Shown piece after piece: positions 2,778 through 32,032 of a stretch of 34,787 bases of DNA. The position numbers and the translations under genes are program-made. Each line of letters opens with the position of its first letter. Position 1 is the first letter of the stretch. Below the pieces are notes generated by a model that worked only from the letters and a program-made list of their open reading frames with translations, did no database searches and was not told the origin of the DNA. Origin of the DNA: Bryobacterales bacterium (lineage in GTDB: Bacteria > Acidobacteriota > Terriglobia > Bryobacterales > Bryobacteraceae). Location: assembly GCA_003167255.1 (NCBI GenBank), contig PMTR01000189.1, positions 1 through 34,787 of the forward strand, given 5' to 3'.

Positions 2778-2800
2778 TCCCAAACAAAAAGAGGTGACAA

Positions 2801-7230: not shown

Positions 7231-7440
7231 ATGAGAAAGGCATACAGCAAAGCTGCGCCCAAACGGGCGAAGCGGACAAATCGCGACCATTGCGGCGTCC
7301 CGCAACTGGCGGCGAAGCTCTCCGGCAGATCGCTCTCGACGGTGTATGCGGTGATCTATGGGCGCGTGAAATCGGCCTGCGTTGAGCAGTGGATCAAGAA
7401 AGCCGAACGCATGTTAGAGCAAAGGGAGCAGGTGGCGTGA
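7231..7440 (+). CDS. Small helix-turn-helix protein (Cro/repressor-like candidate)
   Basis: 69 residues with a basic N-terminus followed by one HTH unit: VPQLAAKLSGRSLSTVYAVI and then YGRVKSACVEQWIKKAE. The turn S-x-S-T-V-Y-x-V and the G-R-V-K-S hinge resemble LacI- or Cro-type DNA-binding heads, here without any effector domain. It is the first gene after the control region, so it may regulate the early promoter. Its TGA overlaps the GTG of the helicase gene (GTGA). The start is plain ATG; the ribosome site is weak. Confidence 0.6.
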   Translation: MRKAYSKAAPKRAKRTNRDHCGVPQLAAKLSGRSLSTVYAVIYGRVKSACVEQWIKKAERMLEQREQVA

Positions 7441-15414: not shown

Positions 15415-15979
15415 CGACTCCGGGGATGACCGCAACAGGAGGTTACCAGCACGGTACTTCCTGACCTACACCGGCAAGCATGTCCACTCGCTCTCTCCCC
15501 ACCCGGAGGAGATCGACATTGACGACGTGGCGCATTCGCTATCGCAGATGTGCCGGTTCCTGGGGCACACGGATGGCTTCTACAGCGTCGGTCAGCACTC
15601 GGTACTGGTGAGCGAACTGGTTCCGGCCCAGGACGCCTTGTGGGGGCTTATGCACGATGCCAGCGAAGCGTATCTCTGCGATCTGCCCGCACCCATAAAG
15701 CGCGACCCGGAAATGGGCATTTACCGGATCGCGGAAGACCGGCTCATGCTGGCGGTCTGCCAGAAATTCGGCCTGCAGCCGGAAATGCCCAAGTCGGTAA
15801 TGCTGGCGGATAAGCTCCTGCTGGCCACAGAATTCCGCGACGTGACCACGGTGGACGATCTCGACTGGATCATTGCGGAGTGCGGCGTCGCGCCCTCGGA
15901 ACACCTCCTCATCCACCCATGGCCGCCCTGCGTCGCGGAGGAACGGTTTTTGCGCCGTTTCTGGAATCTCACAAGATGA
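15386..15979 (+). CDS. HD-domain phosphohydrolase (YfbR-like)
   Basis: 197 residues from GTG at 15386. The phage/YfbR-type pattern is clear: TYTGKHVHSLSPHPEEIDI, then DVAHSLSQMCRFLGH, H71 in VGQHSVLV, and the H90-D91 pair in LMHDASEAYLCDLP. The H...HD...D layout binds a divalent metal. Relatives are 5'-deoxynucleotidases or other nucleotide phosphohydrolases, so a role in the infected cell's dNTP pool is likely. It starts inside the preceding gene, and its TGA overlaps the ATG of the primase gene (ATGA). Family sure, substrate inferred. Confidence 0.8.
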   Translation: MKRRETICHNDSGDDRNRRLPARYFLTYTGKHVHSLSPHPEEIDIDDVAHSLSQMCRFLGHTDGFYSVGQHSVLVSELVPAQDALWGLMHDASEAYLCDLPAPIKRDPEMGIYRIAEDRLMLAVCQKFGLQPEMPKSVMLADKLLLATEFRDVTTVDDLDWIIAECGVAPSEHLLIHPWPPCVAEERFLRRFWNLTR

Positions 15980-17805: not shown

Positions 17806-19489
17806 GCAACTGGCAGCGGGCAGCCTCGAGGAAATCGGCCGGCGCGACCACGAGGTCACCTCTGAGTACCGGATCTTCGGCCCACCGGGCACGGGCAAGA
17901 CAACCAACCTGACCCGGCAGATCCGGCGCGCGGTGGAACGCTACGGCGCGGATTCAGTCCTCGTCACATCGTTCTCGCGCACTGCGGCCGCAGAACTGGC
18001 CGGACGCGATCTCCCGATTGGGAACGACCGCGTCGGCACGCTGCACTCGCATTGCTGGCATGCGCTGGGCGGCCCGGAAATCGCCGAGGCCAACGTGGAC
18101 GAATGGAACAGCGACAACCCTTCGCTCCCAATCACGCCGGCCCGGAAGCAGCACAAGCTCGATGGAGAAGAGTCGGTGGACGAAGATTCCGAAGCGGAGA
18201 AGGACGGCGATACCGAACTACAAAGGTTGAGCCGGTTCCGCGGTCTGATGCTCCCACCGGAACTGTGGCCGAAGACGGTGGCCGAATTCGCGCAGCGGTG
18301 GACGGAGTATAAGCGGGAAAACGGGCTGCTCGACTTCACGGATCTGATTGAGATATCCCTCCGCGAAGTTGCCCTGGCGCCGCATAACCCCTCCGTGATT
18401 TTCGCGGATGAGGCGCAGGATTTGAACCGGATGCAGTTGTCGCTGGTCCGGAAGTGGGGCGAGCGCGGGAACTATTTCATTGTGGCGGGCGACGATGACC
18501 AGACCATCTACACTTTCACGGGAGCCACGCCCGATGCTTTTCTCGATCCCGACATTCCGGACGACCACAAGATCATCCTGAAGCAGAGCTACCGCGTGCC
18601 GCGCGCCGTGCATCGGTTTGCAGAGTCCCTCATCCACCAGGTCACTCGGCGGCAGGAAAAGGAATATCTGCCGCGCCCAGAGGACGGCGCGCTCGACCGC
18701 CTGTCGCGCGACGGATACAAGCGGCCCGAGTTCGCTATCCTCAGCAGCGCCGTCGAACACTTGGAGCATGGCAAAACGGTCATGTTCCTGACAGCCTGCG
18801 CTTACATGCTCAAGCCGCTAGTGGCGGTCCTGCGCAAACAAGGCATTCCATTCCACAATCCGTACCGCAAGAGCAATGGCTACTGGAACCCGCTGCGTAC
18901 CGGAAAGCGCGGGTCAACGGTGAACCGGATCCTCGCGCTCCTGGCTGGCCACCCAGATTACGGCGACGGCCACCATCCATGGACCCATGGCGATCTGGCG
19001 ATGTGGGCAGAGGTGCTGCAGTCGAAGGGTATTCTGCGGCACGGGGCTAAGAAGAAGCTCAGTCAATACGATATCGCCCAAACCGCAACGGTAGAGCGTC
19101 TCGACGAGATCTTCGAACCGGCTGCGCTCGAATCGCTGATGGCTGCGTGGGACGGCAGCTACCGCGACCTGCTGGAGTGGTGGCGCACGCGCCTGACGGC
19201 CGATGTTGGCGCTCGGGTCCAGTTTCCCGCCCAGGTCGCCGCCATTCGCGGCCCGGGTGGCCTGGCGCAGACGCCGCAGGTCATGGTCGGCACGATCCAC
19301 TCCGTCAAGGGTGGCCAGGCCGATGTTGTTTATTTATTCCCCGACCTGAGCCAGGCGGGCGACGCCCAGTACGCGCGTGGCGGCGCGGCGCGCGATTCGG
19401 TGATCCGGCAGTTCTATGTGGGATCAACTCGGGCGCGGGAAAAGCTCTATATCTGCGGGCGCGAGTCGGCGCTTGCCGTGTCTCTCTGA
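17792..19489 (+). CDS. UvrD/Rep-like superfamily 1 helicase
   Basis: 565 residues from ATG at 17792, preferred over ATG 17756 because GAGGGAG lies at 17779-17785. It overlaps the primase gene by 14 bases. Walker A is GPPGTGKTT at 30-38, motif Ia TSFSRTAAAEL, motif II DEAQD at 206-210, motif III GDDDQTIY at 233-240, motif V GTIHSVKGGQADVV and motif VI QFYVGSTRAREKLYI near the end. An acidic insert (residues ~124-139) replaces part of domain 1B. It should unwind DNA 3' to 5' at the phage fork or during recombination. Family certain; pairing with the primase is inferred from the overlap. Confidence 0.85.
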   Translation: MSSTEQLAAGSLEEIGRRDHEVTSEYRIFGPPGTGKTTNLTRQIRRAVERYGADSVLVTSFSRTAAAELAGRDLPIGNDRVGTLHSHCWHALGGPEIAEANVDEWNSDNPSLPITPARKQHKLDGEESVDEDSEAEKDGDTELQRLSRFRGLMLPPELWPKTVAEFAQRWTEYKRENGLLDFTDLIEISLREVALAPHNPSVIFADEAQDLNRMQLSLVRKWGERGNYFIVAGDDDQTIYTFTGATPDAFLDPDIPDDHKIILKQSYRVPRAVHRFAESLIHQVTRRQEKEYLPRPEDGALDRLSRDGYKRPEFAILSSAVEHLEHGKTVMFLTACAYMLKPLVAVLRKQGIPFHNPYRKSNGYWNPLRTGKRGSTVNRILALLAGHPDYGDGHHPWTHGDLAMWAEVLQSKGILRHGAKKKLSQYDIAQTATVERLDEIFEPAALESLMAAWDGSYRDLLEWWRTRLTADVGARVQFPAQVAAIRGPGGLAQTPQVMVGTIHSVKGGQADVVYLFPDLSQAGDAQYARGGAARDSVIRQFYVGSTRAREKLYICGRESALAVSL

Positions 19490-19511: not shown

Positions 19512-19748
19512 ATGTCCGATGAAAATGGTAACCGGCCATCTAACAGGATGTCGGTAGACGAGATCGCCCGCCGCCTCGATATCGGCCGGCTGGCGGTGTA
19601 CGCGATGCTGGAGCAGGGCATTCTCCCCGGCATCCGGTTGGGCCGGCGATGGATCGTCACGCGGCACGCCTACGAAGAATGGGAGCGGACCTGCGGCATG
19701 CGGACCGGACCTGGACTTCAAAACGAACCCGAGGTAAGGGTTCACTGA
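19512..19748 (+). CDS. Excisionase-like HTH protein
   Basis: 78 residues with a MerR/excisionase-type HTH_17 unit at about residues 12-58: SVDEIARRLDIGRLAVYAML, then GILPGIRLGRRWIV and YEEWER. This is the usual small DNA-binding partner encoded beside phage integrases, directing excision or acting as a regulator. The TGA shares a base with the ATG of the integrase gene (TGATG), so the two are translated together. Confidence 0.75.
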   Translation: MSDENGNRPSNRMSVDEIARRLDIGRLAVYAMLEQGILPGIRLGRRWIVTRHAYEEWERTCGMRTGPGLQNEPEVRVH

Positions 19749-20956
19749 TGTCGGTCCACAAACGCAAACGCAAGGGTAAGATCACGTGGCTGTACAAGTT
19801 CGACGGGCCAGGATCGACCCGCGATAATCGGCGTATTGTCAGGGGATTTGGTTTCGCCACCAAGGGCGCGGCACAGGACGCCGAGGCAAAGCGGCGAATA
19901 GACGAAGAGCAAGAATTCGCGATGGCGAAGGCTGGCGTCGGCGTGGCGGCCGAGCCTCCGAAGACGCTCTCGACCCTGCTGGAGGAGTTTTTCCGGCAAC
20001 ACGCGGAAAAGAAGCTGGCGCCCAAGACGATCGAGCGATACCACGAGCAAGCGGCGTGCCTCCACCCCGATCTCCTGGCAATGCGGCTCACGGACATCAC
20101 GCCGCTTCATCTGAGCAGAGAATGGAACCGGCTGCTGGAATCGGGCGGCCACCATCGCAAGACCAAAAAGCCGCGCCCGCTGGCGGCTAAGACCGTCCGC
20201 AGCATCGCGGGCGTTGTGTCGAGCGCCTTCAGACGTGCGGAACTTTGGGGCTTGGTCACCAGCAATCCGGTAAGGCGCAGCGAACCGCCGGTTGCAAAGA
20301 AGCACGAAGGACTAGCGTTGATGCCCGCGGAGCAAGCACGGCTGGTCGAGTCCGCGACGGGCCCCTGGTGCCTGCCGATGTTCCTGGATTTGTCGGCCGC
20401 GACCGGCGCGCGCCGCGGCGAGATCCTGGCGCTGCGCTGGTCCGACATCCGGGACGGTTGCGCATTTATTGATCGGTCGCTGACACAGACGAAAGAGGTC
20501 CTGCTCTTCAAAAGCACCAAATCCGGAAGGCCACGGCGAATCGAGCTTCCGGGTTCGGCCTTGACGGCACTGGACGCCCACCGGCAACGCCAGGACGAAT
20601 TCCGCAGGAAGTTCGGTCCCGATTACCGCACAGACCTGAATTTGATATTCGCGAATCCCGATGGCACACTGCTGAAGCCCGATTCGATTTCCGCGTCGGT
20701 GTCGCTGCTCTGCCGGAAGCTGGGCTTGCCCAAAGGCGCCAGCCTCCACACGCTCCGCCACAGCCACGCGTCGGTCCTGCTGGCAGACGGCGTGGATCTG
20801 GCGACCGTGTCGGAGCGGCTGGGCCACTCGTCCGTCCGCGTGACTGCCGAAATCTACAGCCACGCGATGCGCGGGCGTGACCAGGAAGCCGCCCGGCGGT
20901 GGGACGAGTTGATGGGCCGCACTTCGCAGGAGCGCCCCAAGGTTCCGGTAAACTAA
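19748..20956 (+). CDS. int: Tyrosine-type phage integrase
   Basis: 402 residues from ATG at 19748. The N-terminal ~70 residues form an arm-type DNA-binding part (GKITWLYKFDG), then a SAM-like core-binding domain (LAPKTIERYHEQ). The catalytic residues are all present: R222 in ATGARRGEILALRW, K258 in the STKSGRPR hairpin, H334 and R337 in HTLRHSH, H360 in RLGHSS and Y370 in AEIYSHA. It should insert and excise the element at an att site. It is transcribed rightward at the right end of the phage genes, away from the late genes. Its target is not shown directly; tRNA-Glu at 31.9 kb is a candidate. Confidence 0.9.
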   Translation: MSVHKRKRKGKITWLYKFDGPGSTRDNRRIVRGFGFATKGAAQDAEAKRRIDEEQEFAMAKAGVGVAAEPPKTLSTLLEEFFRQHAEKKLAPKTIERYHEQAACLHPDLLAMRLTDITPLHLSREWNRLLESGGHHRKTKKPRPLAAKTVRSIAGVVSSAFRRAELWGLVTSNPVRRSEPPVAKKHEGLALMPAEQARLVESATGPWCLPMFLDLSAATGARRGEILALRWSDIRDGCAFIDRSLTQTKEVLLFKSTKSGRPRRIELPGSALTALDAHRQRQDEFRRKFGPDYRTDLNLIFANPDGTLLKPDSISASVSLLCRKLGLPKGASLHTLRHSHASVLLADGVDLATVSERLGHSSVRVTAEIYSHAMRGRDQEAARRWDELMGRTSQERPKVPVN

Positions 20957-20964
20957 TCCTCTAT

Positions 20965-21180
20965 ATGGGCGATCAACCGATCAGCGAAGAAGTGCGTCTG
21001 GCCCTGAACCTCTCGGCCGCGTTCACTGCGACGCGCGAGAACATCGGTTTGGATTACGCGCGGAAGAAGTATGGCCACGAACCGGTCAGCGACTATTGGG
21101 TCGCCGTGGCGCGCATGGTGATCGAGGACCTGATCATGCGTCCTGGACGGCTCCCACGCACTCCCCCCACAATTCAGTGA
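20965..21180 (+). CDS. Small protein of unknown function after the integrase
   Basis: 71 residues, ATG at 20965, 8 bases after the integrase stop. It is mostly helical: SEEVRLALNLSAAFTATREN, then a Tyr-rich middle (YARKKYGHEPVSDYW) and a hydrophobic helix. No ribosome site stands out. It may be the last gene of the integrase unit, or belong to the flanking island. No family is recognised. Confidence 0.45.
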   Translation: MGDQPISEEVRLALNLSAAFTATRENIGLDYARKKYGHEPVSDYWVAVARMVIEDLIMRPGRLPRTPPTIQ

Positions 21181-21307
21181 TTCTGGCCAGCGGAATCCCC
21201 CTCCGCCACCCAATCAAGACAATTAAATCGTCTACAATTCCGCAGCGCCGCTATGGTGGACGCCCTTCTCCTGGCGTCGATGGAGTATTCTGAAGGGTCG
21301 AGAGCCG
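21181..21307 (+). promoter_or_regulatory. Gap before the defence genes, possible promoter
   Basis: TACAAT at 21233-21238 is a fair -10 element within the only AT-rich patch (AATTAAATCGTCTACAATT) between the integrase unit and the AAA ATPase gene. No good -35 lies 16-18 bases upstream. No hairpin terminator and no copy of the tRNA-Glu end were found here. Confidence 0.3.
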
Positions 21308-22345
21308 GTGTGGCAAATGGCGAGGGCAGACCTTCTTAAGAAGCTATTCACGGGGTACCAACGCCGCGACGATCAGGCGTTCAAGCAGGCCGCCGAGGAG
21401 CTAATCGTCGAAGAGCGTAAGAAGCAACACTCGATTCTCGCGAATGAACTGGAACGAATTTTGCGAAACGGTCACTCAGAACAGGGCACGCTGAAACGGC
21501 TAGTCCCAATGGAGCCGGGTCCGACGGATTCCGAACGCAGAATGGCACTGCTCGAGGTGCGCCAGCCCCAGCGATACATGGACGACCTCGTGCTGGAGCC
21601 TCCGGTTCGCTGTGCGGTAGACCGCGTACTGCGTGAGTTTCGGGAATGGGACGTCCTGGAAGCAAACGGCCTAGTCCCGATCCGCCGCGTCATCTTTTGT
21701 GGTCCATCGGGTTGCGGCAAGACCGCCATGGCTGAAGCAATGTCGGCCGAACTGGCAATTCCCATGTTGTACGTCCGCTTCGATGCCGTGGTGTCGTCTT
21801 TGCTGGGAGAGACCGCCGCGAACCTGCGCAAGGTTTTCGAATACGCGAGGCGCGGCCAGTGGGTGTTGTTTTTTGATGAATTCGATGCCATTGGCCGCTC
21901 GCGCGACGATACCACCGAGCACGGCGAGATTAAGCGTGTGCTCAACTCATTTCTGCAGATCGTGGACAATTTCGATGGCCGTTCCCTCGTTATCGCCGCG
22001 ACCAATTTCGAACAGGTGCTGGACCCGGCCGTCTGGCGGCGCTTCGATGAGACCATTCGCTTCGAACGGCCTCAGGAATCCCAACTGAAGCTCCTGGCGA
22101 GGAAGCGTCTTAACCCGGTGAGTTCCACTGACGCCCAAATAGATCGAATCGCTGCAGCCTTCTCTGGTTCTTCATATGCGGATGCCGAGCGCGCATGCCT
22201 CGACATTCGAAAAGCGTGCGTGCTACGCAACAGCCGACAAGTTACTGACTCCGACGTGGAGGATGCTCTCGCGCGGCACGCATATCGCCAGTCCGTTCTG
22301 CGGAAAGCTTCGGCATCTGACGCGCCGACCGTAGATCGCGACTGA
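21308..22345 (+). CDS. ietA: AAA+ ATPase of an IetAS-like defence pair
   Basis: 345 residues from GTG at 21308 (ATG at 21317 also possible). Walker A is GPSGCGKT at 132-139, Walker B LFFDEFD at 187-193, sensor 1 ATN at 231-233, and an arginine-finger-like WRRFDE at 243-248. This is the FtsH/Vps4-like AAA type with a helical lead-in of ~95 residues. It is followed after 5 bases by a subtilisin-like protease, the gene pair described as IetAS in Agrobacterium Ti-plasmid stability and later listed among anti-phage systems. The ATPase is thought to hold the protease in check or deliver its substrates. The pairing is seen; the mechanism here is inferred. Confidence 0.8.
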   Translation: MWQMARADLLKKLFTGYQRRDDQAFKQAAEELIVEERKKQHSILANELERILRNGHSEQGTLKRLVPMEPGPTDSERRMALLEVRQPQRYMDDLVLEPPVRCAVDRVLREFREWDVLEANGLVPIRRVIFCGPSGCGKTAMAEAMSAELAIPMLYVRFDAVVSSLLGETAANLRKVFEYARRGQWVLFFDEFDAIGRSRDDTTEHGEIKRVLNSFLQIVDNFDGRSLVIAATNFEQVLDPAVWRRFDETIRFERPQESQLKLLARKRLNPVSSTDAQIDRIAAAFSGSSYADAERACLDIRKACVLRNSRQVTDSDVEDALARHAYRQSVLRKASASDAPTVDRD

Positions 22346-22350
22346 CATCG

Positions 22351-24852
22351 ATGGCACTCATTCCTGGCGACGGTGAATTCCCGCATATCGAGATAGAGCG
22401 ACAGCCCGACGAACCGGAGCGTAGGAGGAGACGGCCCTTTTTCCCTCCAGTCCCGACGCCTCCGGATCGGGGTGAACACGCCGCGACCCTGACAAACCAG
22501 ACGACCCAGGCGGTCCGGGAAACGGCACAGCGACGGGAATCTGTCGGGATCGATCCAAACCGCCTAGTGGTTTTGGAATTCAACACGGTCAACTACGACA
22601 CTCGCGATGACTTCGTCGAAAGATTTCACGCCCAGGTCGTAGATGAGAGCGTTTCCGAGGAAGCCGACCAGACGCGTGTCCGGACGGTTGTGCAGTTCCC
22701 GAGTGAAGCCGCCATTCGAGGGTTTCAACGCGAGATTGCGGCCTATCGGGGTGAACCGGTGGCGCAACCGGTCCTCCCACCGAAGGGTCGAGAGAAGTTC
22801 TTTGATTCCCTCCAGCAGGTCAGGAGCGTCTCCCGCGAGGATCGGATGGGGAGGCGCATCAAGACGGAAGGCTTCCCCCAAGCTGACCCGTTCTACCTCG
22901 ATGTGGACCTGTGGCGGCCCGAGGACGACGGTAGCGCTCGCGAAGTGCTTGCGGAGTTTCGGGCTACTTGCCAACGGGCCGGCTGCCGAGTCACGGACGA
23001 AGTGCGCACCGCCAGCCTATTGCTTGTGAAGGTGCAGGCGACCAGGGCATTCGCCGAACAACTGCTCGGGATCGACCTCGTCGCCCGCGTAGACCTGCCG
23101 CCGCATGTGGCAGCAGGATACACGCGCTTCTTTGAGGACTTTCCACCGCTCGATCAGGGTCAACAACCGGACGAAAGCGACCCAATGCTATGCGTCGTGG
23201 ATAGTGGCGTCGTTTCCGGTCATCCATTTCTGAGGAATTGGGTAGTTGCGGAGCGCGACTTCGATACCGGCGAGAATACCGAGGTAGACCAGAACGGCCA
23301 CGGTACCTCGGTCGCAGGGCTTGCCGTGTACGGCGACATCGCGAACTGTATCGAGACTGGGCAGTGGAACCCAAAGGTTCGAATTTGCTCGGCGAAGGTG
23401 CTTCGAAACGAAGAGAACCCGATAGATCCAAGCCGGCCGCGAGCCGTCTTCCCGGATCAGAACCGAATCGAACACACGATTGAAGATGCCATTCGCCACT
23501 TTCACGATGAGTGGGGCTGCCGGGTGTTCAACCTTTCTGTTGGTGACGACCTGGCGCCTTACGAAGACGGTCGTCAGTTCCCGTGGGCCGAGAAGCTGGA
23601 CGAACTCGCGCGGGAACTGGACATCGTCATTGTCGTCGCCGCCGGCAATCGGTATCCCGAGATGCCTGAAGCCAATGGAGCCTTGGTGGATATTCAGCGG
23701 GCCGTCCGAGATCAGGTGCTGACTGCGGATCATCGGGTTTGCAACCCAGGTACGGCGGCGCTTGCGGTGACCGTTGGTTCAATCGCGCGTAACGACTCCA
23801 TGGCCGTCCAACTCGTGGGTAGGATCCTGCGTATTCCGGATGCAGTTCCTGGCGCGCCACGGGGCGGCCCCAGTCCATTCACCCGCACCGGCCCTGGATG
23901 TAGTTATCGCCGGGACAACCAGAGCATCAAGCCCGAGTTCGCTGACTACGGGGGCAATTACGCGCTGCAGCGGATGGGAGCCGAGGGATTTCGTTGGAAC
24001 GACTGGCACTTCCTGGTCGGAGAGCCGACAATCATCCGCGAACAAGATGGGCGGTTCATCGGCAGCAGGACCGGCACGTCATTCTCCTGCCCGCATGTGG
24101 CTCATGCGGCCGCCCTTGCGGAACGGAGTCTGGAAGGCCTGTTTGGTGCCCCGGCTTCCGCGAATGCGGTACGTGCATTGGTGGCAAGCACTGCCAGAAC
24201 CCCGGCTTGCGGCGAGGAATGGCTTGTGGATGAAGATACCGCGCTCAGGTTCGTCGGATACGGCCAGCCGCGACTCGATCGCTTCGTCTGGTCGTCGGAA
24301 CAATCCGTCCAACTGGTTACCGAGGCGGAACTTGAAGAAGACAAACTTCATTTCTATCGGATTCCGGTGCCGCCGTCGTTCTTGTCCACAAAGGGAGCCC
24401 GCGGAATTACGGTCGCGCTCGCTTACGACCCGCCGGTCCGATCCAGTCGGAAAGAGTATCTGGCGCGGACAATGTTTGTGGATGTGCTGCAAGGCCTGAC
24501 CACGCAGGAAGTCGCGCTCTACAGGTCCAGGTTTCTGGGTGCAGGCCAGCCACCTTCACCGCCCAGCGGCGCCGCGCTCGGCTTCAGACCGCCCTGCACC
24601 GCTCCGCAGTGGTCGACACTTCAAGTCCGGCGGATTGAATGGGCTCGCGCGCCGCGTTTCAGGACTGATACCGATGGGAATCAGAATCTGCATGTGGTGG
24701 TTGGATGCCAAAGGCGATTCCCGACGGGGCTGGACACCAGACAACGTTATGGTCTCGTGATCAACTTCTGGCATGCTGGCGAGGGAGTGCGGATCTATCA
24801 GGAGTTAAGGGCGCTGATCCGGCAAGTGGTCAGAGTACGCGTGCAGCCCTGA
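22351..24852 (+). CDS. ietS: S8 subtilisin-like serine protease of the IetAS-like pair
   Basis: 833 residues. The first ~275 are a family-specific N-terminal region with an Arg-rich patch (ERRRRR), with no signal peptide, so it acts in the cytoplasm. The catalytic triad is complete: D284 in CVVDSGV, H317 in NGHGTSVAG and S577 in GTGTSFSCPHVA-type context (RTGTSFSC), with oxyanion N433 in AAGN. A ~250-residue C-terminal domain follows. It probably kills or stalls the cell, or cuts phage proteins, when triggered. The gene starts 5 bases after the ATPase stop, so the two form an operon. Confidence 0.85.
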   Translation: MALIPGDGEFPHIEIERQPDEPERRRRRPFFPPVPTPPDRGEHAATLTNQTTQAVRETAQRRESVGIDPNRLVVLEFNTVNYDTRDDFVERFHAQVVDESVSEEADQTRVRTVVQFPSEAAIRGFQREIAAYRGEPVAQPVLPPKGREKFFDSLQQVRSVSREDRMGRRIKTEGFPQADPFYLDVDLWRPEDDGSAREVLAEFRATCQRAGCRVTDEVRTASLLLVKVQATRAFAEQLLGIDLVARVDLPPHVAAGYTRFFEDFPPLDQGQQPDESDPMLCVVDSGVVSGHPFLRNWVVAERDFDTGENTEVDQNGHGTSVAGLAVYGDIANCIETGQWNPKVRICSAKVLRNEENPIDPSRPRAVFPDQNRIEHTIEDAIRHFHDEWGCRVFNLSVGDDLAPYEDGRQFPWAEKLDELARELDIVIVVAAGNRYPEMPEANGALVDIQRAVRDQVLTADHRVCNPGTAALAVTVGSIARNDSMAVQLVGRILRIPDAVPGAPRGGPSPFTRTGPGCSYRRDNQSIKPEFADYGGNYALQRMGAEGFRWNDWHFLVGEPTIIREQDGRFIGSRTGTSFSCPHVAHAAALAERSLEGLFGAPASANAVRALVASTARTPACGEEWLVDEDTALRFVGYGQPRLDRFVWSSEQSVQLVTEAELEEDKLHFYRIPVPPSFLSTKGARGITVALAYDPPVRSSRKEYLARTMFVDVLQGLTTQEVALYRSRFLGAGQPPSPPSGAALGFRPPCTAPQWSTLQVRRIEWARAPRFRTDTDGNQNLHVVVGCQRRFPTGLDTRQRYGLVINFWHAGEGVRIYQELRALIRQVVRVRVQP

Positions 24853-24871
24853 TCCGTCCAAACACTTCTCC

Positions 24872-25021
24872 TCAGCGTGCCACTTGTGGACGCATTGCCA
24901 TTGGATTCAAATGGATATTCTGCAAGGTTAACTCTGCAGCGCTTTGTAAGGCGCTCGTGCGGGAGGGGTGAGAGGGTTGTGCGCGGCGCAACAGAGCGTT
25001 GGAATCGATTAGGACGCTCAT
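24872..25021 (-). pseudogene. Truncated PIN-domain toxin (VapC-like remnant)
   Basis: On the - strand, ATG at 25021-25019 overlaps the TGA of the antitoxin gene (ATGA) exactly as in intact VapBC operons. The frame reads MSVLIDSNALLRRAQPSHP, a typical VapC start with the first catalytic Asp (D6), but it stops after 49 codons; VapC proteins have about 130-150. The end (LQNIHLNPMAMRP) resembles the conserved Q-N-x-x-E-F-W-x-V-A-T-R-P segment brought forward by an internal deletion. The later acidic residues of the active site are lost, so no toxin activity is expected. Confidence 0.7.
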
Positions 25022-25266
25022 TTAGCCGCGCGGTCGCCGTGAATGCTTTCGCGGCTGATTGCTTCATCCGTAAGCGGGGAAGTATTCGGGAATCGCTTTG
25101 CGGACTCGATCCAAGCAGCCGCCCGTTCCTGCGGACTCAAGGAATGAGGACGCACCGTGTTTTCAACCATCGCAAGGATATACTGTTCCAGGGACATTCC
25201 GCTGGCGCTCGCCAAAGCGAGAAGACCCGCGTGCATTTCTGGTTTGAGATCGAGCGTGATGGTCAT
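25018..25266 (-). CDS. Ribbon-helix-helix antitoxin (VapB-like), intact
   Basis: 82 residues on the - strand. The N-terminus MTITLDLKPEMHAGLLALA followed by SGMSLEQYILAMV is a ribbon-helix-helix DNA-binding unit. The C-terminus (SPLTDEAISRESIHGDR) is the toxin-binding tail seen in many VapB proteins. It overlaps the truncated PIN gene by 4 bases. The antitoxin is full length while the toxin is not, so it may survive as a repressor or as an anti-addiction leftover. Opposite strand to the IetAS pair; the gap to the latter is 165 bases. Confidence 0.7.
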   Translation of the reverse strand: MTITLDLKPEMHAGLLALASASGMSLEQYILAMVENTVRPHSLSPQERAAAWIESAKRFPNTSPLTDEAISRESIHGDRAAK

Positions 25267-25370
25267 GCGGACCCCACACCTTCAGCTTAACTGAACCGCG
25301 CGGCGACCGAGTCCGACCTCGACACCGCGAGCGCGATCTATAATCCGGATTTGCTTGGGCCCCTGAGAGG

Positions 25371-25793
25371 CTACCGAACAATCCTCGATCTTTTATCACG
25401 TTTCCAGAGCTTGTCCTCGGCGAGCGACGGCATGAGATAGTTCTCCAAAAAGCGGTCGTCGATCTGCCGAAGTTCCCGGTACCCGAGGCCCACCAAAACC
25501 CCGATCATCCGCGTGTCCCGCACCTTTGCGGCCTTTTCCGGGTCCACCTCTCGCGCTTGCTGGTACTCCTCGTCGATCTCGATCAGAACCTGCTTCTTCT
25601 CGTCAAACTCCGTCAATCGCAGCTTCTGTCCGCTGAGATCCTGGATTTGGCGAATCAAACTCAGGATGCGGACCCACTGGCAGACGTGCTCCTTGCCGAG
25701 CTTTAGCTCCTTGGGCGACCGGGACGCCGCCCAGCGCAAATCGAGCGCGATCTGCTCGTGCGTCCGGTTGTAACGAGTGTTGAGTTCCTCCAC
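25371..25793 (-). pseudogene. C-terminal fragment of an unidentified protein, possibly ParB-like
   Basis: 140 codons on the - strand ending with TAG at 25371. The frame has no natural start: it is open upstream of GTG 25793 for a few codons (LQQLLF) and then runs into the helicase fragment on the other strand. The segment FVEELNTRYNRTHEQIALDL loosely resembles the end of a ParB-like domain, followed by a helical, charged region (DEKKQVLIEIDEEYQQARE). Its 5' part is probably missing. Identity uncertain; a short intact gene cannot be ruled out. Confidence 0.4.
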
Positions 25794-25796
25794 GAA

Positions 25797-26393
25797 GAGG
25801 AGTTGCTGCAGATGATCGAACGCAACGTCGAGGCGGGACGCAAGACCTTGATCTGGTCGAATTTCGTCCGCAACCTCGAAACATTGGAACGTATGTTACA
25901 GCGATATCGGCCGGCGCTGATCCATGGCGGCATTCCCTCTGAGATCAGCGACGCATCCGCTCCCCGCACTCGTGAGGCCGAACTGGCCCGCTTCCGAACG
26001 GACGACGCCTGCCAGGTCCTGCTAGCCAATCCCGCAGCAACCAGCGAGGGCGTCAGCCTGCATGACGTGTGCCACGATGCGATCTATCTGGAGCGGACGT
26101 TCAACGCGGGTCAGTATTTGCAGAGCATCGACCGCATTCACCGCTTGGGGATGTCGCCTGATCAGGACACCCAGATCACCTTCCTGGTCATGACCAATAC
26201 TATCGACGAGGTCGTGGACGGCAGGGTCCGGGAAAAAGCAGAGCGCCTCGGAGACATGCTGAACGATCCGGACATCGTGACGATGGCACTCCCGGACGAT
26301 GAAGACTACGGTCCCGCCATCGACTCGGAGGCGGACATCGCCGCGCTGTTCGCTCACCTGAGAGGCGGAGAGGGTGATGCACCCGCCCGATGA
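25797..26393 (+). pseudogene. C-terminal half of an SNF2-type helicase, 5' part missing
   Basis: About 199 codons are open, with recognisable helicase sequence from EELLQMIERNVEAGRKTLIW. It includes motif IV-V parts (LLANPAATSEGVSL) and motif VI (YLQSIDRIHRLG), the second RecA domain of an SNF2/SF2 helicase. The whole first domain (Walker A and DEAH box) is absent. An open frame with GTG at 25758 exists, but those codons look like the antisense of the neighbouring fragment. A product could not hydrolyse ATP. It ends inside the overlap with the DUF3883-like gene, so the original order was helicase, nuclease, methyltransferase. Confidence 0.7.
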
Positions 26394-27288
26394 ACCCCTC
26401 GCGGGTCTGCCGACCATTCATCTGCTCCGAGCGGCACTTGTCGCCGCGTCGGTGTGCGATGCCGCCGGCGTAGAAACCGCCGTCGTCCACCAATCGTATC
26501 TGAGGCTGCCCACTGGCGGGATATATCACAGCGAGGACCTGGTGAAAGGTGAACGCCTGTTACTCCAGTGCGGGCTGCTCACCTCACAGGGAACCGTCCT
26601 GTACCCTTCCGAACAACTCCGCGCCTTGCGCGGGTTGCCACCGGATGAAGCGTCGCAGGTCCTGCTGGTTCTCGCAGCGCAGCAATCGCCACCGCTGTGG
26701 CTGCACTGTGCCGTTCGCAACGATGCCGTCTGGTCGGAACTCATCTCCGACGGAGACGAGCAAGTACTCTGCGACGTGATTCCCGATCCCGACCAGCGGG
26801 AAGCGTTTTTGCTGGCACTGGCAAACCGTTTCCTGAGCGATACCGCGAGGCAGTTGGGCGAACTGGGCGAATGCGCTGTAGTCGACCGCAGCCGGCAGGA
26901 GTTGACACAGGTCGGGCGAGGCGATCTTGCGACGTTGGTGCAACGCGTCAGCCTGATTTCCGATCAACTGGGGTACGACGTCGTCGCGCCGACGCTCCAC
27001 GGCAGGCCGCGCCGCATGGAAGTGAAGACTACGGGCAGAGCCTCGCAAACCCACTTCGAGGTATACCTCAGCCGCAACGAAGCGGCGGTCGCCTTGCGCG
27101 ATCCTTCTTGGGCACTGGTGCTGTGCCAGGCGTGCGATTCTTCCCGCGCGGAGGTTATCGGCTGGTGCCGCGCGGAGGCATTTTCAACCATGCTACCCTC
27201 TGACCAGCATCCGAATGGACGATGGATACAAGTTAGGCTCCAGCTCGATTCCGGAACTTTGAATGAAGGCCTTCCGCCGTATGAATAA
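26377..27288 (+). CDS. DUF3883-like (NOV) nuclease-type protein
   Basis: 303 residues from ATG at 26377, with GGAGAGG at 26367-26373; GTG 26374 is the alternative. It overlaps the helicase fragment by 17 bases and the methyltransferase by 26. The C-terminal ~140 residues follow the DUF3883 pattern: GELGECAVVDRSRQEL, D-L-A-x-L-V-x-R-V-S, D201 in LGYDVVAP, E215-V-K217 in RRMEVKTTG, then VYLSRNEAAVAL. The D...E-x-K arrangement suggests a PD-(D/E)xK nuclease fold. The N-terminal half is helical and unknown. In defence loci this family accompanies SNF2 helicases and methyltransferases, so a restriction role is likely. Confidence 0.65.
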   Translation: MHPPDEPLAGLPTIHLLRAALVAASVCDAAGVETAVVHQSYLRLPTGGIYHSEDLVKGERLLLQCGLLTSQGTVLYPSEQLRALRGLPPDEASQVLLVLAAQQSPPLWLHCAVRNDAVWSELISDGDEQVLCDVIPDPDQREAFLLALANRFLSDTARQLGELGECAVVDRSRQELTQVGRGDLATLVQRVSLISDQLGYDVVAPTLHGRPRRMEVKTTGRASQTHFEVYLSRNEAAVALRDPSWALVLCQACDSSRAEVIGWCRAEAFSTMLPSDQHPNGRWIQVRLQLDSGTLNEGLPPYE

Positions 27289-29278
27289 GCTGGCATCGAA
27301 GTCCCCGCGGACTGAGATTGCGCGCAACAGCGAGGAACCCGAAGTGAAACGGCCGAACAGTGTCCTGGAGCGCTTCGACGCAGGTGCCATCAGCCTCCGC
27401 GCGGCGAAAGAAGTGCGCAACCGCGAGGTCCACCTGCCACCGGTTTCGGTGTACCGGTGGTGGGCGCGGCGCACGGAGGCCGTATTTGGCGGAATTCTGG
27501 ACGCGTTTTTCGTGGATCGGCCAGGACCGGGTCTGGTAGTGGACCCTTTTTGCGGGGGTGGGGTGATCCCGCTGGCCGCGGCCATTCGGGGACATCACCT
27601 GTACGCGCAGGACCTGAATCCCTGGGCCATGCAGGGTCTCTCGGGAATGCTGCGGCTGCCGAGTCCGGACGAAATCCAGCAGCTCACGAAACAGCTTGAG
27701 GAGGCCGCGGAACCGCTGCTTCGATCCGCCTATGCCACCACCTTCTCCGACGGTGAACAGGCGACGATCTCGCACACGTTCCGGGTCGCAAGCGCCAAGT
27801 GCTCCGACTGCGGAGCCCGCAGCCGCCTGTTTCCCCATGCCATGGTCTCGCTCCTGACGCGGAAAGAGCGGGGCCGACCGGAGGCGATTCTCAGCTGTCC
27901 CCGGGGCCACTTGTTCTACGGGAAAACGGGGGCGATGACCCGCTGCCGGGAATGCGGTCTCCAGACCGATCCGGACGCGGAATACACCACCGAACGAACC
28001 GTGGTGTGCCCGCAGTGTCGGCATGCCGAGAAGCTGCAGAGGCGAGCCACAAATGGCGACTGGCAGTGGGAAGTCGTCTTAGTCGAACGAACGGCGCGCG
28101 GGCGGCGCGAATTGGCGCTGGCGACCCCTGAGGAGGTCCGGCAGGCGGAAAGTCCGCGGTGGAAACCGAAGCTTACCCTCGGCCGCATACCGGACGGCCA
28201 GGAAACCAAGGTGCTCCTGCGGCACGGCTTTCAGTACTGGCAGGATCTCTACCCGGCCCGCCAGCGGGCCGTTATGGAGGGCCTTCTAGCGATGTCCGAA
28301 ACGGTGGCACCAGATGAGCGAGCCCAAAACGCACTGCGCATGGCGATCTACGGTTCGGCAGAGATGGCAGGCTTACTCTCGCGCTGGGACCGCTGGTATC
28401 TCAAGAGCTACGAGGCGATGGCAGGCCACCGTTTCAATTTCACGACGCTTCCGGCTGAACCGAACGTTTGGGGGGCGGTGAGGAGCGGGCGGGGCACCGT
28501 CACTCGGCGCCTGGCGCTGTTCGCCAAAGCCTCCGCGTGGCTTCAGGAAAGAGCTGCGGGCTCACTCACGGTCTTGGGACCGGTTCCCGCGACAACACCC
28601 CGAAAGGCAATTCCGAAAGGCGTTGACGCGTACTTGGTGGAAGGCAGCTCGGAAAAGATGAGCTTGCCCTCCGGGTCAGCCGATCTGGTGTTGACCGATC
28701 CGCCATATCACGACGACGTCCAGTACGACGAGCTGTCCCTGCCGCTTCGCGCCTGGTCCCGGCTCTCGACTGAGAAGCTCATCAACGAAGCCGTGGTCAA
28801 TTCCACGAACGGCTTTTCCACTGGGTCCCACGGCTACCGGGATCTCCTGTCCCGGATCTTCCGGGAGTGCCAGCGCATACTCAAGCCAACTGGCCGCCTG
28901 ATCCTCAGTTACGCCAACCGCCAGCCGGAGGCGTGGATCGACCTCTTCGCTGCACTCGAAGTCGCGGGTTTCTGGGGCGTGAATTACGCGATCGTGCACA
29001 GCGAAAATGAAACCGATCACGCCAAACGCGGCATCCGCGCCTGTGCGCTCGACCTGATGATGGAGCTGTCGCCGCACCCAACGCCGGCACCCCGCCTTCG
29101 ATCGAAAGTAACTGCCAGCGGGCCGGAAGCGGATTACCTGAGGACCGTGGGCGACATGTGTCTCGAAATCGGACGCCTCCAGAGCGGCTGGCATGTTTCT
29201 TTTGCGCAGGCCCTCAAGGCGACGCCGTTCCTGTGCGGTCCAATGCGCAGCGCCGGCGCAAAGCCTGCGGCGACATAA
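27263..29278 (+). CDS. DUF1156-like DNA methyltransferase with zinc-ribbon insert
   Basis: 671 residues from ATG at 27263. RWWARR at 65-70 precedes the AdoMet site DPFCGGGVIPLAA at 94-106 and D117-L-N-P. The catalytic motif D479-P-P-Y482 (TDPPYHDDVQYDELS) lies late, as in adenine/N4-cytosine methyltransferases of the DUF1156 group. Between them, around residues 170-260, are several C-x2-C pairs (KCSDCG, RCRECG, VCPQCR), a large zinc-ribbon insert. It overlaps the nuclease gene, so the modification and cutting genes are one operon. Without the helicase's ATPase half, it may act as a solitary methyltransferase. Confidence 0.75.
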   Translation: MKAFRRMNKLASKSPRTEIARNSEEPEVKRPNSVLERFDAGAISLRAAKEVRNREVHLPPVSVYRWWARRTEAVFGGILDAFFVDRPGPGLVVDPFCGGGVIPLAAAIRGHHLYAQDLNPWAMQGLSGMLRLPSPDEIQQLTKQLEEAAEPLLRSAYATTFSDGEQATISHTFRVASAKCSDCGARSRLFPHAMVSLLTRKERGRPEAILSCPRGHLFYGKTGAMTRCRECGLQTDPDAEYTTERTVVCPQCRHAEKLQRRATNGDWQWEVVLVERTARGRRELALATPEEVRQAESPRWKPKLTLGRIPDGQETKVLLRHGFQYWQDLYPARQRAVMEGLLAMSETVAPDERAQNALRMAIYGSAEMAGLLSRWDRWYLKSYEAMAGHRFNFTTLPAEPNVWGAVRSGRGTVTRRLALFAKASAWLQERAAGSLTVLGPVPATTPRKAIPKGVDAYLVEGSSEKMSLPSGSADLVLTDPPYHDDVQYDELSLPLRAWSRLSTEKLINEAVVNSTNGFSTGSHGYRDLLSRIFRECQRILKPTGRLILSYANRQPEAWIDLFAALEVAGFWGVNYAIVHSENETDHAKRGIRACALDLMMELSPHPTPAPRLRSKVTASGPEADYLRTVGDMCLEIGRLQSGWHVSFAQALKATPFLCGPMRSAGAKPAAT

Positions 29279-29292
29279 AACCCCGGCGGGGC
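29279..29292 (-). terminator. Short hairpin between convergent genes
   Basis: Read on the - strand, just after the AIPR stop: CCCC, loop GCC, GGGG, then TTTTA. The 4-bp all-GC stem plus U-run is a weak intrinsic terminator for the - strand gene. The convergent methyltransferase gene ends only 15 bases away. Confidence 0.4.
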
Positions 29293-29293
29293 T

Positions 29294-31408
29294 TCAGCGC
29301 AGATCCGGCAAGGACTCCATAAAGGTCACGCCCTCGGGTTTCCAGATGCGATCCAACCCCTTCCGGGAGTCCACTTCCCACACGCGGCGTTTGAAGTCTG
29401 CGGCGATGTCGCGGCGCAGCAAAACCGTCCGTATCCTTGAGGTGGACAGAAGCGCGGTGCGTCGGTCCTCCCAGAATTGAGCGGCCACGTACTTCAGCAT
29501 GCAGAATATCCTCGCGAAGATCGCGTCTTTTGAGAGCTCACCACCCTTGGCGGCAGCCAGCGCGATGTCCCGCATCTCCCCGGTTGCGAGAAACGGCTCG
29601 ATCTCGGGCCGGTGAAGGATCGCTGAGCACAGCGACGCTTCCAGCGGTCCGTACCGTCGCGCCAGGATGTGCGATGCGACCTCCAGCAAAAGCTCCTTCA
29701 TGTTCGCCATCAGGCGCCAGGTCTGGTAAGTCAGATTGTCGCCCAGGAATTGTTCCTGCACCGACGGCGGGCTGGTCACGCTCCCGCCGGCCTTTTGAAG
29801 CTTGCCGGCCCGCACGCCTTCGTCCAAGGCTTCTTCCCGGTACCGCTGCGCCGAGGGAACGAAGTTGCGAACGAACTGCCAGAGCGCGTACGCCAGCATG
29901 AACTGGGAGGCCTCGCCCTGGACGGTTTTCAAGGTGTGGCGGCGTCCGGCATCGAAATCGGTGTTGCGCGCGAAGAGATTCCAGTGGTGTTCCGTCGGGC
30001 TCATGCCAAACGCGAGTTGGTACACCTCTGGGTCGGAGAAATAGTGGGTCACCCGATCACCGGCGAGGTCGGCAAAACCGATGAGCGCCAACCAGGCCTT
30101 CGCCGCCTCCTGGTTGTCGACCACGCGGCCTTTGCGCTTGTGCGCGTCAGGCCGGAAGTCCACGGCGCTGAAGCCCACGACCTGCTTGAAGAACCGCCCT
30201 CCCTCATCTGTCAGCGATTCCCACTCGCTCTCTTTCACCTGCAGGAACCACCGAGGCGTCATGGAGGCGAAGCCTGAACGCAGCACCCGCTGCTCCCGGC
30301 CGTTGGCCTTGAGATTGCGAGGGTGCATCGGGTTTTGGTTGTTGGTGGCCTGGACCACCTTTGCCACGAAGTCTGCATCGCTGGTGTTGATGACCTTTAC
30401 CTGCACTAGGCACTCGTGCTCCAGTTGTTCTCGGGTGACGTCGTTTCCAGTCACCGCGTTGTATATCGACTTCACCGTCTGGAGCCCATTGACGATCTGG
30501 GGCCCGGTGAGGTGGATGCAATTCTGCTTGTCGCGCACACTGTACGTCTTGGAGACGACGATCAGGCCGTTGTTGTAGTGGTGAAAGTGACGGCGGGTCT
30601 TCTGGTGCTGGAGCGAGCGCAAGATGTCGCCGTTGATCGAGGAGTTGCGCACCTCGTAGCGCAGGTTCAGATCGAACAGACGCCAGCCGTATTTCTTGAA
30701 TCCGTCCAGGAGATCGGCGGCGTTGGTGAGGAAGTAGCAGTAGTCGTGCGCGCGAAGGATTCCGATGTCGGCGGAGTAGCGCAGGTCCAATTGAATCTCA
30801 CCGGACTGATGGGCGGTGCCGACGAGGAATTCGTCCGCGAGGTCGGCGATCTGTTGCAGGAGAATACGGACCCCGGTCCGCTCGTAATCGAGCTTGAGCT
30901 GGGCAAAGGCGGCTTTGGCTCGATCGTTGAGAGCCCCGTAGACGATCAGGAAGAACACCAGTTCGAAATCGTCCTGGTTCCGATCGGCACTGATGCGGGC
31001 GCGCAAATCCTGCAGGCGGTCATTCGCCGTCTTGTCGGAATTCTCCAGCAGGTATTGCAGCGCCGTTCGGCACTCCTGAAGGGCGGAGGGACCGAAGGCC
31101 CGGACTTCTCCGGGGTGGGCTTCGAGCCAGTCCCGTTCGGGAGCCCGGCACTGGACGACGTGATAGGTGCGGTCCCGACAGGAATAGAAGGCAAGGCCCA
31201 AATCATCCTTGCCGTAGGCGCTGATGGTGCTCGCGGAAGTGCCGAGCGAGTACTTCCCCATGCAATACACCTGGAACCCCTCGCGGAAGTCCCCTACTTC
31301 GGGATTCTCGCGGACGAGTTCGTCGATCTGGCGTTCAAGGAGGTCGATGCCTTTCGTGTCTTCGATGGTTCCAGGCTGCATGGCGCTATTGTACTTGCCA
31401 TACATCAA
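29294..31408 (-). CDS. AIPR-family abortive infection protein
   Basis: 704 residues on the - strand. Family signature motifs lie in the middle: FHHYNNGLIVVSK, then GPQIVNGLQTVKSIYNAV, VQVKVINTSDADFVAKVVQA and TNNQNPM. These match the AIPR (abortive infection phage resistance) family, known from phage resistance of Gram-positive and other bacteria. The C-terminal ~300 residues are helical and less conserved. The start is uncertain (ATG at 31408, 31405 or 31381). It stands alone, convergent with the methyltransferase, so it may be an independent defence gene. The biochemical activity of the family is not established here. Confidence 0.8.
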   Translation of the reverse strand: MMYGKYNSAMQPGTIEDTKGIDLLERQIDELVRENPEVGDFREGFQVYCMGKYSLGTSASTISAYGKDDLGLAFYSCRDRTYHVVQCRAPERDWLEAHPGEVRAFGPSALQECRTALQYLLENSDKTANDRLQDLRARISADRNQDDFELVFFLIVYGALNDRAKAAFAQLKLDYERTGVRILLQQIADLADEFLVGTAHQSGEIQLDLRYSADIGILRAHDYCYFLTNAADLLDGFKKYGWRLFDLNLRYEVRNSSINGDILRSLQHQKTRRHFHHYNNGLIVVSKTYSVRDKQNCIHLTGPQIVNGLQTVKSIYNAVTGNDVTREQLEHECLVQVKVINTSDADFVAKVVQATNNQNPMHPRNLKANGREQRVLRSGFASMTPRWFLQVKESEWESLTDEGGRFFKQVVGFSAVDFRPDAHKRKGRVVDNQEAAKAWLALIGFADLAGDRVTHYFSDPEVYQLAFGMSPTEHHWNLFARNTDFDAGRRHTLKTVQGEASQFMLAYALWQFVRNFVPSAQRYREEALDEGVRAGKLQKAGGSVTSPPSVQEQFLGDNLTYQTWRLMANMKELLLEVASHILARRYGPLEASLCSAILHRPEIEPFLATGEMRDIALAAAKGGELSKDAIFARIFCMLKYVAAQFWEDRRTALLSTSRIRTVLLRRDIAADFKRRVWEVDSRKGLDRIWKPEGVTFMESLPDLR

Positions 31409-31895
31409 TAGCAGGGAACGAGAGCGGCATTGGCGTGATCTGGCCGCGCCGCCCGTGGGGCGTCGATTGGAACCACGCTAACGGGAAACGAGCCCGCCAT
31501 CGAAGACCGCGATTCCGCTCTGCTCAATCCGGCGGCGCGCCACCAGAAGGCATTCGCCGAGCGGTCCGCGTCCGCCTTATGCTACCTGCCGGTCGACGCG
31601 GCGGAGATCGCCGGTCCCCAAGACCATGATAACGGTGACGCTACGACGACGCCCACTCGCGGCCGAAGCCTCTGGCCAAGGCTGGCGGCCACACGTCCAG
31701 GCCGCGGCACACCGGCGCAACGTGCGCGCCCCCTGCGCGAACGGTGGCGCGGTCTTCGCCAACTTGCCCGTCCTGCTAGCGCCGCGCCGGCGCGCGAACG
31801 AGGCCGAAACTTCGGTGCATTTTGGGGTCTGTTTTTGCTGGAGCGCTGCGCGTGGTCGCCCGTGGTCTCCCACGGCCCCTAACTCTATGAAAACT
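31409..31895. other. Non-coding boundary region next to tRNA-Glu
   Basis: 487 bases without a credible gene. One + strand frame is open from about 31,438 to 31,883 but has no ATG, GTG or TTG start and no family look. The region holds the tRNA-like 21-bp repeat at 31,476 and a 6-bp hairpin (CCGTGG TCTC CCACGG, 31860-31875). Its right edge is the 3' end of tRNA-Glu. It may be the remnant of an earlier integration. Confidence 0.5.
31476..31496 (-). repeat. Near-copy of the tRNA-Glu T-arm/3' region (candidate att)
   Basis: 21 bases match 31902-31922, inside tRNA-Glu, at 19 positions and in the same orientation: CGCTAACGGGAA, one mismatch (A for T), CGA, one mismatch (G for A), CCCG. The match does not extend on either side. 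A copy of the tRNA 3' part 426 bp from the gene, on the island side, is what an att repeat of a tRNA-targeting integrase looks like. Confidence 0.55.
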
Positions 31896-31970
31896 TGGTA
31901 GCGCTAACGGGAATCGAACCCGTATTTAAGCCTTGAGAGGGCTCTGTCCTAACCGTTAGACGATAGCGCC
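31896..31970 (-). tRNA. tRNA-Glu (anticodon CTC), CCA encoded
   Basis: Read on the - strand from 31970. The acceptor stem GGCGCTA pairs with TAGCGCT (one G-T pair). The D arm has TCTAACGGTTAGGA, the anticodon loop is CTCTCAA with anticodon CTC between GAGCC and GGCTT, and the T arm is CGGGTTCGATTCCCG. Discriminator A is followed by an encoded CCA (31896-31898). The 3' end points to the defence island and prophage, the usual arrangement for integrated elements. Confidence 0.95.
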
Positions 31971-31982
31971 ACGGGTGCTTCC

Positions 31983-31991
31983 ATTCTACCA
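31983..31991 (-). promoter_or_regulatory. Extended -10 element for tRNA-Glu
   Basis: On the - strand, TGGTAGAAT, a TG-n-TAGAAT extended -10, ends 12 bases before the tRNA 5' end. The -35 region (GC-rich) has no consensus, which an extended -10 can compensate. Confidence 0.45.
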
Positions 31992-32032
31992 AACCCACCG
32001 GTCGCCTCGCGCCGCGCCATAATGAGAGTGCA

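Follow-up and report, generated by a model that had tools for sequence, protein, structure and literature searches.

In the genome of a soil acidobacterium of the order Bryobacterales, predicted defence genes lie between a phage integrase gene and a tRNA-Glu gene, which raises the question of whether they belong to the prophage as cargo or form a separate island stacked beside it. We analysed a stretch of 34,787 nucleotides (the window), which is the start of contig C17 of a 7.35-Mb genome in 200 contigs. The contig begins at window base 1, and thus the prophage's other end lies outside the window. Comparison with related elements makes it very probable that the defence genes are prophage cargo, held within the att boundaries in a variable pocket between the integrase gene and the tRNA-side att arm. 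The dormant virus in this host therefore appears to carry roughly 10 kb of putative antiviral genes within its own boundaries.

Gene order across the window

The features are given below by coordinates and strand. For genes outside the window, the caller was trained on the codon use of the window genes, and its scores are not independent evidence for those genes.

3–2777, plus: phage gene that encodes a non-contractile tail sheath TIM-barrel domain and starts beyond the contig edge (PF23845, 9.4e-22; phrog_6040, of unknown function, 6.9e-25)
2801–3289, plus: endolysin (phrog_3513, 1e-28)
7437–9119, plus: SNF2-type phage DNA helicase (phrog_62, 5.4e-116; 65% identity in G189 and G218 phage loci)
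10476–11357, plus: ParB-like phage protein (phrog_1033, 3.8e-20)
15919–17805, plus: phage DNA polymerase/primase (phrog_2478, 2.8e-20)
17756–19489, plus: phage UvrD-like helicase (PF00580, 5.1e-23; 67–72% in L115, L152, L157, L167, L168 and L173)
19548–19748, plus: excisionase-like protein, 66 aa, directly 5′ of the integrase (phrog_66, 1.5e-5)
19748–20956, plus: tyrosine integrase (PF00589, 1.1e-18; catalytic motifs located)
20965–21180, plus: 71-aa integrase-associated ORF, forming the pocket's conserved shoulder on the left (relatives have homologues next to the integrase)
21317–22345, plus: IetA, AAA ATPase (PADLOC PDLC02196, 2.7e-93; Walker motifs)
22351–24852, plus: IetS, subtilisin-like peptidase (PADLOC PDLC02198, 7.7e-106; catalytic D, H and S motifs)
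25371–25793, minus: ParB-like protein, inverted internal fragment (70% to the inside of a 449-aa L169 protein, opposite orientation)
25758–26393, plus: helicase remnant, C-terminal domain only (Helicase_C, 5.1e-10; 85% to the C-terminal third of a 616-aa L169 helicase)
26374–27288, plus: NOV_C/DUF3883 protein (PF13020, 4.6e-6; PDC-S36, 3.7e-19)
27263–29278, plus: DNA methyltransferase (PF01555, 1.1e-6; DPPY and motif I; 65% in G228)
29294–31405, minus: AIPR/AbiU-like protein (PF10592, 7.3e-25; AbiU, 2.7e-29; 72% in G228)
31476–31496, plus: decayed tRNA-Glu 3′-end core, matching at 19 of 21 positions (100 shuffles gave no such match)
31792–31895, plus: att arm with two 10-bp repeats, the right conserved shoulder (homology to L009 and L103; arm-and-core model)
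31896–31919, plus: 24-bp attachment core, the tRNA-Glu 3′ end
31896–31970, minus: tRNA-Glu (ctc), 3′ end facing the defence genes (ARAGORN)
32033–33697, plus: chromosomal flank gene (orthologues beside tRNA-Glu in relatives)

By its predicted content the element is not a phage satellite, with a tail-sheath domain and an endolysin both present. In SaPI and PICI elements, accessory genes adjoin int or att; the window element resembles them in having such genes near its ends and differs in its tail-sheath and endolysin genes. Its polymerase/primase is found in 23 of the 237 family genomes, own genome counted (1e-40). Window positions 3–3204 match the end of another contig of the same genome (G000 C142, L164) at 85% over 3.2 kb, a second prophage-like tail region, and for window bases 1–600 that contig end is the sole match beyond the window itself (92%). 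C17 starts and C142 ends at this shared sequence, possibly at an assembly break.

An excisionase-like gene also precedes the integrase in many of the compared relatives. The 71-aa ORF, for which neither Pfam nor PHROG gave a match, has homologues adjoining the integrase in L103 (two frames), L111, L150, L157 and L096. The integrase has its catalytic residues and the core lies in a tRNA 3′ end, the combination that marks a tRNA-integrating tyrosine recombinase.

The cargo proper occupies roughly 21.2–31.8 kb. Its left part is an IetAS pair, in which an AAA ATPase and an S8 peptidase are adjacent and match most of both PADLOC models, as in known IetAS systems; here the pair sits within a prophage pocket, as predicted from sequence. 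IetS matches subtilisins among solved structures. Beyond a stretch without a called gene follows a broken module, a complete copy of which is found in genome G228 (L169:5600–13815). There, the ParB-like protein has 449 aa and the helicase 616 aa; a DUF3883 protein accompanies them, and the methyltransferase and the AIPR protein, the latter encoded on the other strand, have 694 aa each. An SMODS cyclase and an M78-peptidase/HTH protein are encoded nearby, and the 18-kb stretch has no window-type integrase. The name ParB-like for the 449-aa protein is our own reading; Pfam and PADLOC gave no match for it, and neither the full-length protein nor AIPR has a relative among solved structures. The methyltransferase occurs in 2 of the 237 family genomes at 1e-40 (own and G228) and, at 1e-30, in 3 of 396 phylum genomes (own and two at 27–28% identity). 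The complete set of five genes in L169 is a possible undescribed defence system.

In the window, the ParB-like piece is inverted (25417–25804 matches L169 6498–6111) and the helicase is without about its first 420 residues, the ATPase half included. Because this module is broken, the ten kilobases amount to one intact-looking system, IetAS, and one partial system. An earlier note, made from the letters of this DNA, had placed ten kilobases of defence genes between the integrase and the tRNA-Glu att site. The placement is borne out, since IetAS (21317–24852) and the second module (25371–31405) are bracketed by these landmarks with the phage genes to the left; the right half of the interval is to be described as a broken module.

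The att arm and the boundary of the element

The 24-bp core occurs five times in the window's own genome (up to 3 mismatches allowed, all copies exact), once in a tRNA and four times outside tRNAs, and a reversed-core control gave none. The four copies outside tRNAs have arm-like flanks; none is linked to the prophage, inside which the contig starts. With up to 2 mismatches, the core is present in 88 of the 101 family genomes searched (own counted), several of them multi-copy, and the reversed control was again zero. A 6.7-Mb contig of G009 carries three same-strand cores within 13 kb, of which the last alone lies in a tRNA. Together, the five own-genome cores, the 88 of 101 genomes and the G009 triple identify tRNA-Glu as a site of both integration and stacking.

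The earlier note also proposed listing what lies between integrase and tRNA in relatives. We compared 26 loci whose integrases share 50% identity or more with that of the window, including the window and L009 from the same genome. Integrases below 50% and fragments are outside this set, as are three full-length integrases at or above 50% (G274 C671, G249 C429 and G233 C39); L123–L136 are repeats of genome loci already counted, and L083 belongs to a different family within the same taxonomic order. Twenty-two of the 25 related loci in the integrase alignment come from Acidobacteria/Acidobacteriia/Terriglobia/Bryobacterales/Bryobacteraceae/Sulfopaludibacter MAGs, and the other three are weak matches from other groups.

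In the commonest arrangement, seen in 11 of the 26 loci, a same-strand core lies 54–97 bp past the integrase end; seven of these cores are in tRNA-Glu and four are not (L085, L106, L108 and L117). Seven loci have a distance above 1 kb: the window (10943 bp, or 10.9 kb), L103 (8372), L009 (6715), L115 (3070), L119 (2185), L122 (2141) and L118 (1293), and all of their cores except that of L009 sit in tRNA-Glu. The other eight have no same-strand core in the 1.2–18.2 kb of downstream sequence examined; in three of them (L109, L111 and L113) a core lies on the opposite strand.

Loci outside this count add further cases. Three with integrases of 37–42% identity (L086, L088 and L097) are of the adjacent type (82–92 bp). 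Among the uncounted fragments L137–L144, a same-strand core lies 543 (L142), 83 (L143) and 797 bp (L144) downstream, and L137–L141 have none. Twelve IMG/VR loci, excluded from the 26, were scanned: a same-strand core follows the integrase in L154 (82 bp), L158 (462 bp) and L160 (70 bp; 41% identity), an opposite-strand core is found in L157 and L159, L152 has only an upstream core, and no core was found in L150, L151, L153, L155, L156 or L161. Three of the six whole IMG/VR records (L150, L151, L152, L155, L157 and L159) contain the core. Two close integrases speak neither way, as the available sequence of L150 (71%) and of the fragment L139 (78%) contains no core. Across counted and uncounted loci alike, opposite-strand cores 0.2–5.8 kb downstream of the integrase in L109, L111, L113, L157 and L159 look as if the integrase segment had been inverted relative to the att site.

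The adjacent-type loci reveal what normally links integrase to core, namely an arm in which a 10-bp repeat occurs twice in tandem. Specifically, 17 of 19 arms match in at least 8 of 9 bases at an offset of 10, and no other offset between 6 and 17 gives this for more than 2 of 19. The repeat letters vary between elements but are alike in the two repeats of one element, the pattern expected of paired binding sites, and such co-changing letters (for example, window 31848–31895) suggest a shifting arm specificity of the integrase.

In the window this arm adjoins the tRNA. Positions of roughly 31836–31895 are homologous to the spacer between integrase stop and core in G046, G113, G134 and others; the blastn arm spans include the tRNA, and those for L083, L085, L115, L118, L119 and L122 start only at 31875–31889. 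When arm and core were modelled together from 18 elements, with the window left out, a single strong site emerged at 31848–31919 (58.5 bits). The next best was the decayed core at 31476, between the AIPR gene and the arm (6.0 bits, E 0.46, no arm beside it), and there was nothing beside the integrase. Likewise, neither the model nor scans allowing up to 6 mismatches found an att repeat near 21.2 kb, where a boundary between prophage and island would fall.

Arm and integrase also vary together. Across 19 elements, arm similarity and integrase similarity are correlated (Spearman rho 0.48, a value reached by 1 of 2,000 permutations), and for arm and integrase alike the nearest partner of the window is L103. 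The closest integrases with a core in reach are those of L103 and L009 (73% and 71%), and both loci show the same split between integrase and arm around unrelated cargo. DNA homology between the window and L103 stops at 21180 and resumes at 31829 (89% over 31829–31993, a span that includes the tRNA); with L009, it resumes at 31792 (74% over 31792–31922). None of the window cargo genes is common to L103 or L009.

An arm that has moved to the tRNA, that is absent beside the integrase and that is split off in the same way in L103 and L009 places the defence genes inside the element. The likely role that had been given to the tRNA as att site is upheld, as the core follows the integrase through the shared arm in relatives. 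Between the two possibilities first raised, cargo is favoured over stacking.

Pocket contents and carriers among relatives

The pocket lies between the integrase with its 71-aa ORF and the arm with its core, and its content varies as in a hotspot: the seven gaps above 1 kb differ from one another, and eleven loci have no gap cargo. PADLOC defence-gene matches are present in three of the seven gaps (window, L119 and L122), which is a plain count and no measure of enrichment. The L122 gap holds a TIR gene and a RES gene, and that of L119 one TIR protein. In L009 the gap contains a HATPase, a HATPase-receiver, a small protein and a TCAD9 protein (below the Pfam cut-off, with a weak PADLOC match), by domain content a likely conflict system; the accessible portion of PMC7159879, on ternary conflict systems, does not use the word TCAD. 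The L103 gap has no defence genes and carries a second tyrosine recombinase, pieces of an IS91-type transposase and a serine recombinase. The L118 gap has only small ORFs, which were left out of the family searches. Two proteins of 296 and 211 aa in the L115 gap (L115:4245–5792) belong to no known Pfam or PADLOC family and gave only chance-level matches to solved structures; located in the pocket of a related prophage, they are candidates for unknown defence genes.

Family searches also covered some proteins of the no-core loci L105, L113, L104, L110 and L109, and did not extend to L107, L111 and L116. They identified an HD-CE/HATPase gene in L113, respiratory complex I genes in L110 and a primase-like gene in L104, and no known family for the L109 protein searched. 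Separately, L105:7629–14226 holds a complete Wadjet JetABCD operon beginning 273 bp past a 67% integrase, with no core found downstream.

One prophage, in G189, shares the window's backbone (SNF2 helicase 65%, polymerase 55%, UvrD 72%, excisionase 71%, integrase 63%), and its integrase is followed by 3070 bp of other genes and then tRNA-Glu. Elsewhere the carriers differ. Left of the L103 integrase there is no window phage gene except an excisionase remnant, and contig C161 of the window's own genome was ruled out as the same phage, only the integrase being shared and no other gene at 1e-5. C161 and L103 have nothing but the integrase module in common with the window, and so integrase and arm pass from one backbone to another. 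At the tRNA-Glu of G001, of the same genus (flank gene 96–97%), the 2.7 kb left of the core have no homologue of a window gene.

The C161 segment (6756–80402; L008, L011–L013 and L009) spans 73.6 kb between two cores outside tRNAs. It carries a polysaccharide-export gene, a beta-propeller protein and an erythromycin-esterase-like gene, and ends in an integrase, HATPase/TCAD9 genes and a core. This integrase can be aligned with that of the window from residue 63–71 onwards only. The segment looks like a non-phage island, or several, as the integrase remnant at 25391 would allow. In G001 C45 (L093:2348–10100), a core of the same arm type lies 146 bp beyond the end of HmaC (E 0) and a TmtA-like gene; in L171 there is no window-type integrase upstream of the HmaC and TmtA-like genes.

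Origin of the arrangement and its meaning

Our preferred reading implies a simple course of events. Integration at the tRNA-Glu 3′ end, as the comparison supports, would leave arm and core against the tRNA, and comparison places 1.3–10.9 kb of putative cargo between integrase and arm in the window and six further loci. Recombination of both cores by the integrase should then release everything between them, cargo included, as one circle. Counted against this reading are the unseen second att site at the prophage's unassembled other end, the decayed core at 31476, the eight of 26 loci without a same-strand core, and the occurrence of integrase and arm on other backbones.

Some of these points bear on history alone. 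Tandem elements with related integrases may have been fused by deletion into what is one unit today, an origin that agrees with the cargo reading on the present state and that we regard as possible, though well short of probable. Such a fusion accounts for the decayed core, the further cores, the truncated cargo genes and the shared integrase on unrelated backbones. However, no intermediate with both integrases and the lost core between them was seen, and the arm matches that of the closest relative of the present integrase.

A stronger departure holds that an island entered tRNA-Glu first and the prophage then inserted beside it, the boundary att repeat having since been lost, so that prophage and island are adjacent but separate. 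Stacking does occur at this site, as the own-genome cores and the G009 triple indicate; the decayed core, possibly left behind by an earlier stacked insertion, keeps a stacked origin in contention; and the right-hand module exists in G228 apart from a window-type integrase. The earlier note had specified what would count for such neighbours, namely relatives in which the prophage ends at about 21.2 kb with an att repeat of its own and the defence genes occur without it. This is partly seen, in the att core that directly follows the integrase in relatives and in the right cargo half in G228, but the window's own prophage has no att repeat at 21.2 kb. Moreover, neighbours would require the loss of an arm and core beside the integrase as well as of the island's own integrase, a tRNA arm that matches the integrase's best partner element by chance, and a like history in L103 and L009. 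We therefore consider independent neighbours improbable. There is also little to recommend the view that the whole interval has decayed, with integrase and cargo as relics that neither move nor protect, which the missing helicase ATPase half and the inverted ParB-like piece would suit, because the frames of integrase, IetA, IetS, methyltransferase and AIPR are open and the catalytic motifs of the first four are kept.

Prophage defence hotspots are already known, and the window is probably one in a new position. As far as the available parts of the published descriptions go, the P4 hotspot has variable defence genes between psu and int, one in Vibrionaceae prophages has cI and the integrase as its borders, and one in Bacillus lies close to the integrase. 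Like these, the window belongs to a temperate element in which predicted defence genes, flanked by two conserved landmarks, vary and turn over strongly from one relative to the next. Those hotspots span roughly 1–5 kb between conserved genes, whereas the present putative one reaches up to 10.6 kb from integrase to att arm, in acidobacterial phages. The accessible portion of PMC10121019 describes E. coli tRNA hotspots with defence-carrying mobile islands, where tRNA genes likewise hold different defence-bearing elements in each strain; unlike there, prophages and apparently non-phage elements here share one integrase type, one arm type and one tRNA. PMC5900883 describes acidobacterial prophages, and its accessible portion does not mention an integrase-to-att cargo arrangement. 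Literature searches by title returned nothing on integrase-to-att cargo, AIPR with DUF3883, IetAS, or arm sites at tRNA-Glu.

A bolder proposal, which we offer tentatively and doubt will hold in every part, is that the Bryobacteraceae integrase and arm form a portable frame of phages and non-phage islands, whose pocket would be refilled, mostly with defence genes, as elements stack at tRNA-Glu and are then fused by deletion, and that the rare ParB/helicase/DUF3883/methyltransferase/AIPR module is a defence system of its own. In practical terms, the integrase stop and the att arm provide an anchor pair with which defence genes can be sought in genomes of acidobacteria and in soil viromes; relatives with this integrase type carry TIR, TIR and RES, or HATPase/TCAD9 genes directly between integrase and core. 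For the host, the lysogenic phage would confer protection through IetAS, and a protective role of AIPR and methyltransferase is doubtful because their module has lost the helicase ATPase half. More broadly, the arrangement suggests how phage-borne defence may be swapped without touching the phage core.
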